A DNA stretch of 37,575 nucleotides from contig SKKN01000042.1 in the NCBI GenBank assembly GCA_007121455.1, positions 1-37,575 on the forward strand. Direction: 5' to 3'. Each line of letters opens with the position of its first letter. The first letter of the stretch is position 1. Source of the DNA: Gemmatimonadota bacterium (GTDB lineage: Bacteria > Gemmatimonadota > Gemmatimonadetes > Longimicrobiales > Gaopeijiaceae). A program made the position numbers and the translations under genes. The notes under the pieces are model-generated. The model searched no databases, was not told where the DNA came from, and was given only the letters and a program-made list of their open reading frames with translations. This document shows positions 3,451-14,631 of the stretch, piece after piece.

Positions 3451-4359
3451 ATGTTCGACGAGCGACTGACAGAGCAGCGAAACCCGCGCTCGGCCGGGAT
3501 CGATCTCCGTACCCCTCTCGAGCTCGTGCGGCTCATGAATGAGGAGGATCGGCAGGTCGCGGACGCGGTCGCTGGGGAAGAGGAAGCGCTCGCGCGGGCG
3601 ATGGAGCTCGTTGCCGATGCCTTCCGGCAGGGAGGAAGGCTCTTCTATGTGGGCGCGGGCACGTCAGGTCGGCTCGGCGTCCTGGACGCCGCGGAGATGC
3701 CCCCCACATACGGTACGGATCCCGAGCTCGTGCAGGGGATCATCGCGGGCGGGTACGAGGCGCTCGTCCGCGCCCGCGAAGGTGCGGAGGACCGGCCCGA
3801 GGACGGAGCGGCGGCGATCGTCGAGCGGGGCGTGGGAGAGAGCGACTTCGTCCTGGGCATCGCGACCTCCGGCACGACCCCCTTCGTGCACGGCGCCCTG
3901 GCCCGCGCCCGGGAATCGGGGGCGCGCACCGGATTTCTCCTCTGCACCCCGCCTTCCGAGGACCTCCGTGCCCGTCACGATGTCGTCATCGCACCGCTCG
4001 TCGGCCCCGAGGTGGTCACCGGGTCGACCCGCATGAAGGCCGGGACGGCGACGAAGCTCGTTCTGAACACGCTGACCACCGGGGCGATGGTCCTTACGGG
4101 AAAGGTCTACGGGAACTTGATGGTCGACCTCCAGGTCACCTGTGAGAAGCTCCAGGACCGGGGCGAGCGCATCCTCATGACGATCCTCGGTCTCGAGCGG
4201 GCGGAAGCGAAGCGCCTGCTCGACCGGGCGGGAGGACACGTCAAGACCGCGATCGTGATGGAACGGCGACAGGTGGAGGCGGGGGAAGCACGTCGGCTCC
4301 TCGACGCCGCGGAGGGGAGGGTCGCCCGGGTCGTGGGCGAGCTTCCGGCCGCGAAGTGA
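3451..4359 (+). CDS. murQ: N-acetylmuramic acid 6-phosphate etherase
   Basis: This encodes a 302-residue MurQ, which removes the lactyl ether from MurNAc-6-phosphate to give GlcNAc-6-phosphate and D-lactate in cell-wall sugar recycling. The N-terminal half is a SIS sugar-phosphate domain with YVGAGTSGRLGVLDAAEMPPTYG near residues 66-88. Glu82 and Glu113 (in GAEDRPEDG) sit where the catalytic acids of the E. coli enzyme are. The highly conserved GSTRMKAGTATKLVLN lies near residue 190, and a C-terminal helical region follows. The length is typical. The stop overlaps the start of anmK (GTGA at 4356-4359), and AnmK makes the substrate of MurQ, which strongly supports the assignment. The gene is divergent from the M20-ggt pair with 74 bases between starts. 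Confidence 0.97.
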   Translation: MFDERLTEQRNPRSAGIDLRTPLELVRLMNEEDRQVADAVAGEEEALARAMELVADAFRQGGRLFYVGAGTSGRLGVLDAAEMPPTYGTDPELVQGIIAGGYEALVRAREGAEDRPEDGAAAIVERGVGESDFVLGIATSGTTPFVHGALARARESGARTGFLLCTPPSEDLRARHDVVIAPLVGPEVVTGSTRMKAGTATKLVLNTLTTGAMVLTGKVYGNLMVDLQVTCEKLQDRGERILMTILGLERAEAKRLLDRAGGHVKTAIVMERRQVEAGEARRLLDAAEGRVARVVGELPAAK

Positions 4360-5627
4360 GCGGCTCCGCGCCCATGCTCCTGGCCGGTCTCATGTCCGGG
4401 ACCTCCCTGGACGGAATCGATGCGGCGCTGCTCGAGATCGAGGATGGGGGGCCCGGGGGCACGGAGTTCGCGGCTGGGGGGACCGCGGCCGGGCAGCGGG
4501 CGAGCGGCGAGAACGCCGACCGCGCGGCACCGGGGCTTCGCTGGCGGATCCTCGCATTCCGAAGCCGGCCGTACAGCGACGCGCAGCGGGAGGTCATCCG
4601 GGAGGCGGTCGAAGGGCGGGCCCGCGTCCCCGAGCTCGCTCGTCTCCACGTCTATCTCGGAGAGTGGTTCGCCGGAGCCCTCCTCTCCCTCCTCGAGGAG
4701 GCGGGCGTGCGCCCGGAGGAGGTGGCGGCGATCGGATCCCACGGGCAGACCGTCCGCCACGATCCTCCCCGGGGATCGGAGCGAGGACACTCCTTCCAGC
4801 TCGGAGACCCGGCGACCCTCGCGGAGCGGACGGGAACCCCGGTCGTCTCGGACTTCCGGGCGCGGGACCTGGCAGCGGGAGGTCACGGCGCGCCCCTCGT
4901 TCCCCGGGCGGACCTCCTCCTCTTCCATGAACCGGGGCGGGCGCGCGCTCTCCAGAACCTGGGCGGAATGGGCAACGTGACCTGGCTTCCCCCGTCCGGG
5001 GACCCGGCGCAGGTGAGAGGGTTCGACACGGGCCCCGGCGTAGCGCTCCTCGACGAGGCAGCGGCCCGCGCCACGGGAGGCAAGTGGGACCGGGACCTCG
5101 ACGGTGCGCTCGCAAGGCAGGGACGCGTCGACGAGGCGCTCCTCAAGGAGCTGCTCACGGATCCCTACTTCGAGGAGGAGCCCCCCCGCTCGACGGGACG
5201 GGAGCGCTTCGGCCCTCCACTGATCGACCGGCTCGCGCGCGAACTGCTCCCCGGCCGGCCGGAGGAGTGGGTCGACCTCCTCGCGACCCTCACCGCGCTC
5301 ACCGCTCGGAGCGTGGCCGACTCGTACCGGCGCTGGATCCTCCCTCTTGGTCTGGACGAGGTCGTGCTTCTCGGCGGCGGCAGCCGGAACCCGGCCCTGG
5401 TGGACGCGATTCGGCACGAGCTCACCGGGGAGCTGGGCCGGATCCCGCTTCGTGGCGGTGACGCGCTCGGCATCGACCCGGACGCCCGCGAGGCCGCCGC
5501 GTTCGCGGTCCTGGCCTGGTGCCATCTGCGGGGGCTCCCCGGAAACGTGCCGGCCGTCACGGGTGCGGAGGGGGAGCGGGTGCTGGGGTCGTGGACGCCG
5601 GGGCGGGACGTGGGCGGCACCGGATGA
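4356..5627 (+). CDS. anmK: Anhydro-N-acetylmuramic acid kinase
   Basis: This encodes a 423-residue AnmK, which opens 1,6-anhydro-MurNAc and phosphorylates it to MurNAc-6-phosphate, feeding MurQ. It has the sugar-kinase (actin-like ATPase) signatures GLMSGTSLDGID near the N-terminus, IGSHGQTVRH, and VSDFRARDLAAGGHGAPLVP with the catalytic-Asp region. FDTGPG and the late LLGGGSRNP are also present. The GTG at 4356 overlaps the murQ stop; an ATG at 4374 is a possible alternative start and would remove only six residues. A Gly/Ala-rich insertion (about residues 27-55) makes the protein longer than the roughly 370 residues usual for the family. The stop overlaps the next start (ATGA at 5624). Confidence 0.95.
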   Translation: MSGSAPMLLAGLMSGTSLDGIDAALLEIEDGGPGGTEFAAGGTAAGQRASGENADRAAPGLRWRILAFRSRPYSDAQREVIREAVEGRARVPELARLHVYLGEWFAGALLSLLEEAGVRPEEVAAIGSHGQTVRHDPPRGSERGHSFQLGDPATLAERTGTPVVSDFRARDLAAGGHGAPLVPRADLLLFHEPGRARALQNLGGMGNVTWLPPSGDPAQVRGFDTGPGVALLDEAAARATGGKWDRDLDGALARQGRVDEALLKELLTDPYFEEEPPRSTGRERFGPPLIDRLARELLPGRPEEWVDLLATLTALTARSVADSYRRWILPLGLDEVVLLGGGSRNPALVDAIRHELTGELGRIPLRGGDALGIDPDAREAAAFAVLAWCHLRGLPGNVPAVTGAEGERVLGSWTPGRDVGGTG

Positions 5628-11205: not shown

Positions 11206-12096
11206 ATGACCGAACCGCTTCGCATCTCCCGCCACTTCTTCAAGGGACACGGCCTCGGCAACGACTACCTCGTCTTTCGGGCCGAGGAGGACGGGTGGCC
11301 CCTCTCCCCGGAGGCGGTGCGCCGGATTTGCCACCGGGAGGAGGGGGTGGGCTCCGATGGCATCGTCGTTCTCGTGGGGCGATCCGGCGCCGGACCCGGA
11401 CCCTTTCTCCTCCGCATGTTCAATCCGGACGGTTCGGAGTTCGAGCGGAGCGGAAACGGGCTCCGCGTCCTCGGAGCCTTCCTCCTCGCGGAGGGCGAGG
11501 TGGGAGGGGAGCCGTTTCTGGTCGAGTCCGGAGGAGACCGGATCGAGATGGAGGTCGTCGGGGAGGGGCCGGGAGGCGTGTCGGTCCTCACCGTGGAGAT
11601 GGGACGCGCCTCGCTCGCGCCCGAGAGCGTGCACCTCGACCCCGAGCGGACCGCGGAGGAAGGGGGAGGCCTCGCCCACCCCGATCTCGGCGCCGTCGAT
11701 TTTCAGGCAGTCTCGGTCGGGAACCCCCACTGCGTCGTCTTCACCGAAGAGGATCCCGAGGAGTCCGTCGATGCGCTCGGTTTGTTTCTCGCGGTCCATC
11801 CCGCCTTTCGGGAGGGGACGAACGTTCAGGTCGTACGGGTCGCCGGAGAGCGGAAGCTCCGTATCGCGATCTGGGAACGGGGGGTCGGCCGTACCGCCGC
11901 CTCGGGGACCAGCTCGTGCGCGGCCGCGGTCGCCTCGGTGGCCCGAGGGCTCGTGCCCGCGGGAGAGGTGGAGGTGGAGATGGCCGGCGGAGCGCTCCAC
12001 GTCACCGTGACGGAGGAGCTGGACGTTGTGCTCCGGGGGCCGGTCCAGGAGGTGTTTCGGGGCGAGCTGTCGCCCGCGTTCGCGGAGGCGCTCTAA
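11206..12096 (+). CDS. dapF: Diaminopimelate epimerase family protein lacking both catalytic cysteines
   Basis: This encodes a 296-residue member of the DapF fold, which normally converts LL- to meso-diaminopimelate for lysine and peptidoglycan. It has the opening FFKGHGLGNDYL, MFNPDGSEFE, SVGNPHCVVF and IWERGVGRTAASGTSSCAA, all in the right order and spacing. In the H. influenzae enzyme the two acid/base cysteines lie in QCGNGARC and ACGSGAC. Here both are serine: the codon AGC at 11449-11451 in RSGNGLRV, and TCG at 11902-11904 in ASGTSSC. One cysteine survives three residues after the second position. The rest of the active site looks intact. The gene could be a serine-type variant, a different isomerase, or an inactive paralogue. 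The ATG at 11206 is preferred over the GTG at 11173 because of an AGGGA ribosome site. Confidence 0.85.
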   Translation: MTEPLRISRHFFKGHGLGNDYLVFRAEEDGWPLSPEAVRRICHREEGVGSDGIVVLVGRSGAGPGPFLLRMFNPDGSEFERSGNGLRVLGAFLLAEGEVGGEPFLVESGGDRIEMEVVGEGPGGVSVLTVEMGRASLAPESVHLDPERTAEEGGGLAHPDLGAVDFQAVSVGNPHCVVFTEEDPEESVDALGLFLAVHPAFREGTNVQVVRVAGERKLRIAIWERGVGRTAASGTSSCAAAVASVARGLVPAGEVEVEMAGGALHVTVTEELDVVLRGPVQEVFRGELSPAFAEAL

Positions 12097-12118: not shown

Positions 12119-13192
12119 TCAGGTGCGCACCCGGATCAGAAGGTAGATCCCGGCGGCCAGGAATATCCCGTTCGGAAGCCAGGCCGCGACCAGCGGATTG
12201 ATCGCTCCTGCGGTTCCGAGTGCCCCCGCCACCCGGAAGAGCATCATGTACAGGATCGTCGTACCGAGGGAGAGGCCGACCCCGAAGGCGGTGCCCCCGC
12301 GGTGCGAGCTCGTGGCAAGAGGGGCGCCGAAGAGGATGATGATGAGCGTCGCCACCGGGATCGCCAGCTTCTGCTCGCGCTTCACCTCCACCCGGTACGG
12401 GTCGCCACCGGAGCGCCGGATCCGGTCCGCGAGCCGGCCGAGCTCCGCGTACGTCATCTCATCCTCGTGGCGGGGCTCCTCGACGAGCTCCTCGGGGCTC
12501 TCCCTGAGCTCCCGGCCGTAGTACTGGTCGAACGAGTATGCCCGCTCCCTCCCATCTCCGTCGAGGTAGCGGTAGTAGCCCTGCCGGAACGTCCAGCCCG
12601 AGTCCGGATCGTAGTCCGCCCTCTCGGCGACGAGGTGGAAGTAGGGCTCTTCCGGATTCTCACTCGGTCGTTCGAGGACGACCCCCTGCATCAACCCCTC
12701 AGCGACCACGAGCCGTCGGACGCTGAGGGCCTCTCCCGCGTCCGTCATGTAGACGAAGTTGGAGCGCCATTCACTGCGTCCCGACCGCTCCTCCCGGATC
12801 TCCGCGGCCTTTCTCGTGAGCTCGGGTGAGACCTCGGCGAGGACGAGGCCGGCTCCGGTGAGGATCACACCGAGGGCGACGAGCGGCAGGATGAGCCGGT
12901 GAAAGGAGATGCCCCCCGCCTTCGTCGCCATGATCTCGTTGTGCGCGGTCATCTGATGGATCGTGAAGACCGCGGCGAGGAGCGACGCGATGGGGAAGGA
13001 CCAGAGCATGAACTGCGGGAACTGGTACAGGTAGGAGAGTGACACCTGGCCGAAGCTGAGTCCTCGGTCCAGGTACCGATCGAGGTTCTCCACGGCATCC
13101 CCGAGCGTGAAGAGCATGGGAGCCCCCAGCACGAAGATGATGAAGAGCCGGATGAAGCTCCGGGCCACGAGCCGGTCGAGGATCCGGATCAT
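12119..13192 (-). CDS. lptG: LptF/LptG family lipopolysaccharide export permease (second gene)
   Basis: This encodes a 357-residue inner-membrane permease of the YjgP/YjgQ family. These proteins pair to form the transmembrane part of the LptB2FG transporter, which extracts lipopolysaccharide from the inner membrane. Helices lie at about residues 13-35, 55-75 and 95-120, and three more follow in the last 100 residues, with a periplasmic beta-jellyroll domain between. Motifs typical of the family include FIRLFIIFVLGAPMLF, the NEIMATKAGGISFHR coupling segment, and LAIPVATLIIILFGAPLA. The start overlaps the stop of the upstream partner (ATGA, 13189-13192), so the two are co-translated. Whether this is strictly the F or the G member is not certain. 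The gene is convergent with dapF, with 22 bases between stops. Confidence 0.88.
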   Translation of the reverse strand: MIRILDRLVARSFIRLFIIFVLGAPMLFTLGDAVENLDRYLDRGLSFGQVSLSYLYQFPQFMLWSFPIASLLAAVFTIHQMTAHNEIMATKAGGISFHRLILPLVALGVILTGAGLVLAEVSPELTRKAAEIREERSGRSEWRSNFVYMTDAGEALSVRRLVVAEGLMQGVVLERPSENPEEPYFHLVAERADYDPDSGWTFRQGYYRYLDGDGRERAYSFDQYYGRELRESPEELVEEPRHEDEMTYAELGRLADRIRRSGGDPYRVEVKREQKLAIPVATLIIILFGAPLATSSHRGGTAFGVGLSLGTTILYMMLFRVAGALGTAGAINPLVAAWLPNGIFLAAGIYLLIRVRT

Positions 13193-14631
13193 GCCTCGAT
13201 CTCCGCCTTCCTTCCGGAGAACGGCCGGCGGATCGCCACGCCGATGCGGTATTTGAGCTGGTCCCACGTCCCTCCCCGCATCGTCGAGATCTCCCGTCCC
13301 ATGCGGTACGCGAGGATGAGCGCGGGAACGAGCAGGATCACGTTCGGCGCCCACATCGCGATGATCGGATGAAGGTGGCCCCGGTCCGCGAGTCGCTCGC
13401 CGGCGATCAGCCCCGCCCAGTAGAGGAAGAAGATGCCCACCGAAACCGCGATCACCATCCCCACGCCGCCACGAGGGAATCGGATCGCCAGCGGCGCGCC
13501 GAGCAGGACGAAGACGATGCACGCGAAGGCGATCGCCCACTTCTTGTGGATCTCCACCTGGTAGGAGTACGCCGTGAGCTGATGGATGTCCGCCCGACTC
13601 ACGTTCACGTCGTACGTCCCCCGCACGAAGCTGGTGACTTCGTCGGGCCGGAGGCCGGCGTGGAACTCCCCATCCCCGTCCGAAACGCCGGTGCCGGCGG
13701 TCATCGTATCCGCGTTCATGGAGGGCTCCAGCCCTTCTCCCGAGCCGAGGGCTTCGAGAACCGCGCTCCGGGAGCGGACCATGCTTTCCTGGCGTGCCTG
13801 CTCTGCCTGGCTCAGATTCTCTTCCATGCGCTCCCTCAGCATGGCGATCGTCATTTCCCGGTCCCCCCGGCGTCCCTCGGTGCGCCGCTCCAACTCGGAG
13901 CCCACGCCGGGCATCCGGACGACCTGCTCCTGGAAGGCGAGTCGGTGGAACTCCGCCGGGGTGCCCTCGCCCACCTCGAGAACCTCACCGTCCTCGAGGG
14001 CGATGATCAGGTCCGTGCGGCTTTCATCGAAGTACATCGTCCCCCGAGCGGCGTGGACCGTCCGGTAGCGGCCGAACGTGCTGAGGTCGAAGATCGAGAC
14101 GTCCGTCAGCTCGTTCGTCGCCTGGTCGATCTCACGGGCCCTCAGGAAGTAGCGCGTATCGTCCGCGGTCTGAACCGGGTTGACGACCTCTTCGCGAAGC
14201 TCGAAGGTGGGGCTCTTGCTTCCCACGTCCAGCAGGAGGTTGCTCAGGCGGTGGTTGGATTCCGGCAGAACCCGGTCGTTGAAGCCGACCATGAGCCCGG
14301 CGAGGATCACACTGACCCCGAGCAGGGGGATGAGGAGGCGGGTCGGGCGTACCCCGCCGGCCGCCATCGCGGTGATCTCGTTCGACGCGGTGAGCTCGCT
14401 GAAGGCGTAGAGGACGGCGACGAGCACGGCCATGGGGAAGGTGAGCGCGATGATGTGCGGGAGGGAGAGGACCATGAACTCCGCGATCACGCTCCAGTGC
14501 AGCCCCTTTCCGGCGAACTCCTCCATCCTCTGCGCCACCGCGTTCAGGAAGAGGAGACCCGTCACGGTGGTGAAGGCGAACAGAAACGGACCCAGGTGGG
14601 CTCGGAGGATGTAGCGGGTGAGAATCTGCAT
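13189..14631 (-). CDS. lptF: LptF/LptG family lipopolysaccharide export permease (first gene)
   Basis: This encodes a 480-residue partner of the next gene. It has the same architecture: three N-terminal helices (MQILTRYILRAHLGPFLFAF and onward), the coupling segment NEITAMAAGGVRPTR, a periplasmic jellyroll, and three C-terminal helices beginning HKKWAIAFACIVFVLLGAPL. It is over 100 residues longer than proteobacterial LptF. The extra part lies between the jellyroll and helix 4: a charged, helix-prone stretch (MLRERMEENLSQAEQAR and following) and a Gly/Asp-rich stretch. Similar enlargements are known in LptF-like proteins of Bacteroidota and relatives. The gene is divergent from the sprA-like gene. 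Confidence 0.88.
   Translation of the reverse strand: MQILTRYILRAHLGPFLFAFTTVTGLLFLNAVAQRMEEFAGKGLHWSVIAEFMVLSLPHIIALTFPMAVLVAVLYAFSELTASNEITAMAAGGVRPTRLLIPLLGVSVILAGLMVGFNDRVLPESNHRLSNLLLDVGSKSPTFELREEVVNPVQTADDTRYFLRAREIDQATNELTDVSIFDLSTFGRYRTVHAARGTMYFDESRTDLIIALEDGEVLEVGEGTPAEFHRLAFQEQVVRMPGVGSELERRTEGRRGDREMTIAMLRERMEENLSQAEQARQESMVRSRSAVLEALGSGEGLEPSMNADTMTAGTGVSDGDGEFHAGLRPDEVTSFVRGTYDVNVSRADIHQLTAYSYQVEIHKKWAIAFACIVFVLLGAPLAIRFPRGGVGMVIAVSVGIFFLYWAGLIAGERLADRGHLHPIIAMWAPNVILLVPALILAYRMGREISTMRGGTWDQLKYRIGVAIRRPFSGRKAEIEA

Follow-up and report, generated by a model that had tools for sequence, protein, structure and literature searches.

In the textbook account, cofactor-independent amino acid racemases depend for catalysis on a pairing of thiol and thiolate, and mutants with Ser in place of Cys serve as dead enzymes. 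In Cys-type diaminopimelate (DAP) epimerase (DapF), the two thiols are located at helix starts and held by backbone amides, and aziridino-DAP inhibitors attach covalently to the catalytic cysteines (PMC12039745). A single Cys-to-Ser change in the Cys-type enzyme PddB leaves <0.1% activity (PMC8225329), and that paper cites a likewise <0.1% activity for Cys-to-Ser Mt-DapF; the loss, which counts against catalysis by serine, reflects the far weaker acidity of a hydroxyl compared with a thiol, and serine is also the poorer base. Within the fold, PMC4113996 provides one precedent for a single catalytic serine, a 4-hydroxyproline epimerase with a Ser93/Cys pair, and also a Ser/Thr pair in a proline-racemase relative that acts as a dehydratase and not as an epimerase, which counts against a serine epimerase. 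No published description of a Ser/Ser DapF was found among the open-access papers searched.

The window analyzed here, a 37,575-nucleotide stretch of contig SKKN01000042.1 from a Gemmatimonadota bacterium, contains a dapF-type gene at positions 11206-12096 on the forward strand. The original prediction described a healthy reading frame with intact DapF motifs, and the translation agrees: the frame encodes 296 aa without an internal stop, and GLGND, FNPDGSE, GNPHC and WERGVG are all intact. An alternative longer frame (307 aa) starts at GTG 11173; ATG 11206 agrees with the family start. The protein scores 204 bits against the DapF equivalog profile TIGR00652 (cut-off 114.65), covering model positions 2-268 of 270, and its closest solved relatives by alignment to PDB proteins are diaminopimelate epimerases. 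It stays below the cut-off of NF038284 for bifunctional DapF/glutamate racemase (59 versus 350 bits), and the proline racemase profile PF05544 gave 0 matches at E <= 0.001 across the whole of its own genome, the window dapF included. Kinship with the proline racemase superfamily is one of fold only (Foldseek, TM about 0.7).

The AlphaFold model (pLDDT 94.8, pTM 0.91) has the two-domain DapF fold, with Ser82 and Ser233 each placed just ahead of the helix (residues 83-95 and 234-246, respectively) that bears the cysteine in known DapF. In a Foldseek search of the PDB, the top 26 matches are DapF or O-ureidoserine racemase, DapF structures rank first, and the fold matches include the laboratory mutants C73S and C217S (2q9h, 2q9j).

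On the reverse strand, lptF/lptG-type genes (12119-14631) adjoin dapF convergently, and the arrangement of dapF followed by lptFG and a gene for a large protein recurs in most Ser/Ser loci from the bacterium's own family. Upstream of dapF, a gene for AnmK (anhydro-N-acetylmuramic acid kinase; 4356-5627, forward strand) adjoins a GKRP/MurQ-like SIS domain gene (3451-4359), and the two constitute a wall recycling pair.

Alignment with solved DapF confirms the predicted replacement of both catalytic cysteines by serine: CGNG aligns with FERSGNG and ACGTGAC with AASGTSSC, placing the serines exactly at the catalytic positions. Ser82 (codon AGC, 11449-11451, forward strand, as are all codons given below) corresponds to the first catalytic cysteine, Cys73 of the H. 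influenzae and E. coli enzymes, and Ser233 (TCG, 11902-11904) to the second, Cys217. At both sites serine occupies 74/74 sequences of the clade to which the window protein belongs and cysteine 53/53 of the others, so that the thiol/thiolate pair of DapF is replaced by Ser/Ser in the window and throughout the clade. Two neighboring positions are likewise clade-specific. Position 81, beside Ser82, is basic (Arg81 in the window protein, 11446-11448; 69 Arg and 5 Lys in the clade) and is Met in 31 of 33 classical Cys/Cys DapF; position 236, three residues past Ser233, is mostly Ser (11911-11913; 72 Ser, 2 Gly) and is Gly in all 33 classical enzymes.

The substrate contacts are retained. Asn19 (11260-11262), a proximal contact equivalent to Asn11, is invariant in the Ser/Ser and Cys/Cys types. 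The residues in contact with the distal end of DAP, as described for Anabaena DapF (PMC12039745), are kept in 72-74 of the 74 Ser/Ser sequences: Asn73 (Asn66 in Anabaena; 11422-11424; 74/74), Asn173 (Asn164; 11722-11724; 72/74), Asn206 (Asn197; 11821-11823; 74/74), and Glu224-Arg225 (Glu215-Arg216; 11875-11880; 74/74 and 73/74, respectively).

To place the variant, we aligned 127 DapF sequences, comprising the best 80 relatives of the window protein and further loci from whole genomes; outside Gemmatimonadota the survey covered the nearest relatives only. Of these, 74 are Ser/Ser, all nested together, 53 are Cys/Cys, and 0 have a mixed pair. Among the best 80 relatives, the readable Gemmatimonadota members are Ser/Ser and those from other phyla Cys/Cys. 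Three loci titled Gammaproteobacteria (L008, L010, L012) group by DapF sequence in the Gemmatimonadota Ser/Ser clade, and are probably mis-assigned sponge MAGs. In a tree computed by a quick method with columns 81, 82, 233 and 236 removed, and with SH-aLRT support but no bootstrap, the Cys/Cys and Ser/Ser types are separated by one change; the Ser/Ser clade has 99% SH-aLRT support and a long stem of 0.9 changes per column.

A Ser-type N-terminal motif with an AGY codon was found in 144 of 154 genomes of the bacterium's own order, taken to be Longimicrobiales, representing 58 of 61 genera, with one match per genome. Among the 10 motif-negative genomes, 5 have a DapF match that is Ser wherever one or both sites can be read; the other 5 gave no DapF match and are all fragmented assemblies, so absence there is uncertain. 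Conservation of the pair in a clade, rather than sporadic error, is thus what the alignment and the genome counts reveal, and Ser/Ser DapF, as judged from these genomes, is the form that an entire order of bacteria from soil and sea carries as its sole copy. Sister orders can be rejected as its source: families f4-f8 of the same class have a different, more distant Cys/Cys type (ERGVE..TLACGTG), which we take to be Bacteroidota-like, and family f9, of another class, has a classical Cys/Cys DapF adjoining lysA. The very different DapF of G029, G080, G026 and other f4-f8 genomes (loci L133-L151) implies at least one DapF replacement in the class.

The gene bears the marks of constraint. At the Ser82 site the codons are AGC (51), AGT (14) and TCG (1), that is, AGY in 65 of 66; at the Ser233 site they are TCG (43), TCC (14), TCA (5) and TCT (4), that is, TCN in 66 of 66. 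Third bases are free at both codons, and the amino acid is therefore held while the DNA drifts. Several of the serine codons lie one step from cysteine, and 0 reversals were seen. With dN/dS of 0.13-0.27 (NG86, pairs of 90-98% identity), the window-type dapF is, by these substitution patterns, under purifying selection and not decaying.

We then considered where the cell could obtain meso-DAP. No second dapF was detected in the bacterium's own genome or in five single-contig genomes (G017, G058, G069, G070, G075): PF01678 identifies one DapF protein in the former and, in each of the latter, the two domains of one gene. The profile for ddh gave no match above cut-off among 121 genomes of the phylum, and Ddh was rejected as a bypass to meso-DAP on that result. 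TIGR03540 (DapL) matched in all genomes searched, none of the matches being above cut-off; DapL is in any case no alternative route, because its product is LL-DAP, which still requires an epimerase afterwards. The expected consumers of meso-DAP are present. The genome encodes lysA (458 bits, GPVCETGD motif), the substrate of LysA being meso-DAP, and a murE with the DNPR motif of DAP-adding ligases, a motif that may not separate LL from meso. It also encodes dapB; TIGR00036 gave no detection of dapB in two single-contig Ser/Ser genomes, so that the pathway is not fully accounted for in all members, a point against the Ser/Ser protein as a working DAP epimerase. G085, G103 and G110 have no lysA match, yet keep a Ser/Ser DapF (L105, L111 and L090), a retention that fits a role of the protein in the wall. 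In G069, G093, G100 and G101 a lysA-type match below cut-off lies inside frames of about 880-940 aa, which suggests fusion of aspartate kinase with DAP decarboxylase. Open papers yielded no DAP data on the walls of Longimicrobiales, and neither enzyme activity nor genetics turned up for the Ser/Ser clade.

Other racemases of related fold were considered as replacements for DapF and rejected: the own genome has neither the proline racemase nor the Asp/Glu racemase family, and neither family occurs in every member of the clade. PF05544 is missing from f2/f3 members as well as from the own genome. PF01177 (Asp/Glu racemase family, MurI) is missing from the own genome and from the single-contig Ser/Ser genomes G017, G069, G070 and G075, but is present in G058, G110, G006, G032 and G052; the Cys-type G019 lacks it too, so that absence of murI does not follow the Ser/Ser state. 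The genomes without PF01177 (the own genome, G000, with G017, G069, G070, G075 and G019) still encode MurE; their D-glutamate may be supplied by a D-amino acid transaminase or, in the manner of Chlamydia, by DapF. Since nothing else recognizable could supply meso-DAP, the Ser/Ser protein is its likely source, and the suggestion in the original prediction that the cell relies on another route has gained no support, with no second dapF in the own genome or the five single-contig ones and no ddh in 121 genomes.

Based on these observations, we consider it likely that the window gene encodes the cell's sole, working DAP epimerase, with Ser82 and Ser233 as the base-acid pair. The Ser/Ser DapF would turn LL-diaminopimelate to the meso form, for wall and lysine, retaining the classical two-base scheme of the fold with the serines as base and acid on opposite faces of the substrate. 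The helix starts, together with Arg/Lys81 and Ser236, may depress the pKa of the serines or hold their hydroxyls in place; ionization or orientation of the two side chains would be aided by the positive charge next to Ser82 and by the extra hydroxyl close to Ser233. The catalytic part played by the serines and DAP as substrate are the elements of this scheme that we infer. On balance we also favor its wider implication: a natural two-serine amino acid epimerase whose active site appears to have been re-engineered through Arg/Lys81 and Ser236, such that hydroxyls, without cofactor or thiol, would take an alpha proton from a free amino acid and give it back. The bacteria of this order thus probably run the DapF reaction in a manner new for DapF. 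The original prediction had left the choice between a serine-based epimerase and a new activity; the former is the reading best supported by sequence comparison, and the latter survives only as an unlikely rival.

This main rival holds that the reaction or the substrate has changed, for example to a dehydratase-like beta-elimination or to another diamino acid, and that meso-DAP is made by an unrecognized, non-homologous enzyme. It gains from the long stem of the clade, from the killing of characterized enzymes by Cys-to-Ser changes (PMC8225329), and from the dehydration that accompanies Ser/Thr in the proline racemase superfamily (PMC4113996). However, a changed substrate sits poorly with the near-complete retention of the distal DAP contacts. 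The genomes moreover contain neither a ddh above cut-off nor a general DapF-fold substitute: the own genome lacks both PF05544 and PF01177, f2/f3 members lack the former, and several other genomes lack the latter. With dapF single-copy order-wide, the rival further demands an epimerase of unrecognized kind common to the whole order.

Loss of catalysis, with the protein retained as a binding regulator or partner protein, seems distinctly improbable. E. coli DapF does pair with RppH, DapF-RppH complexes are found in the PDB (6d13, 6vck), and Cys-to-Ser is the classic inactivation of DapF (2q9h, 2q9j). A protein that only binds would nevertheless have no use for an invariant hydroxyl at the two sites, where Ser is found in 74/74 and never Ala, Gly or Thr; the contacts of the active site are retained, and this reading leaves meso-DAP without a source. 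Even less probable is that the role of base falls to another residue, such as the conserved Cys42 or Cys238, with the serines as bystanders. The two cysteines are conserved in the clade (74/74 and 73/74), but both are ordinary DapF residues that also occur beside the catalytic pair in Cys/Cys enzymes (36/53 and 25/53), and were rejected as substitute catalysts on that ground; Cys238 is replaced by Ser in L089, from a genome that is 99% complete, and it is Ser82 and Ser233 that occupy the catalytic-cysteine positions in alignment and model. Finally, nothing was found in favor of an error of sequencing or assembly, or of a degenerating copy under relaxed selection beside a normal dapF elsewhere. 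Both are refuted by the Ser/Ser pair in 74 aligned homologues drawn from numerous independent assemblies, by fixation of the Ser form in >140 genomes, single-contig ones included, and by one DapF per genome with dN/dS of 0.13-0.27.

If serine catalysis is true, an order-wide, single-copy Ser/Ser DapF on which the cell seems dependent would mean that the chemistry can do without a thiol, with the co-travelling changes at positions 81 and 236 hinting at how. The variant has a bearing on drug design, since DapF is an antibacterial target and the covalent attachment of aziridino-DAP inhibitors in the Cys type is to the cysteines that are missing here (PMC12039745). Annotation rules that demand both cysteines would mislabel Ser/Ser genes as inactive.

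Compared with known systems, the protein with the Ser/Ser pair is, by profile match and alignment, a variant of the known enzyme DapF. It shares with DapF (TIGR00652; PDB 2otn, 8qzy, 9mro, 3ejx, 1gqz) the fold, the length, all DAP contacts and a gene present once in a genome that also encodes lysA and murE, and differs in that both catalytic cysteines are Ser and that Arg/Lys81 and Ser236 take the place of Met and Gly. The bifunctional Chlamydia DapF with glutamate racemase activity (PMC5885031; NF038284) is a homologue from a background that, like some Ser/Ser genomes, is missing a recognizable murI; Chlamydia DapF, however, keeps both cysteines, and the window protein reaches only 59 bits against the NF038284 cut-off of 350. 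The Ser/Cys 4-hydroxyproline 2-epimerase and the Ser/Thr trans-3-hydroxyproline dehydratase belong to the same fold superfamily and offer a natural Cys-to-Ser change in which a catalytic Ser occupies the first position, but they are of another family, act on proline-type substrates, and have Cys kept or Thr at the opposite position; the accessible part of PMC4113996, from which this comparison is drawn, describes no Ser/Ser epimerase. The same residue changes as in the window protein occur, singly, in the H. influenzae mutants C73S and C217S (2q9h, 2q9j). Those mutants were engineered to be disabled and have no accompanying changes, whereas in the clade of the window protein both replacements are natural and fixed order-wide.
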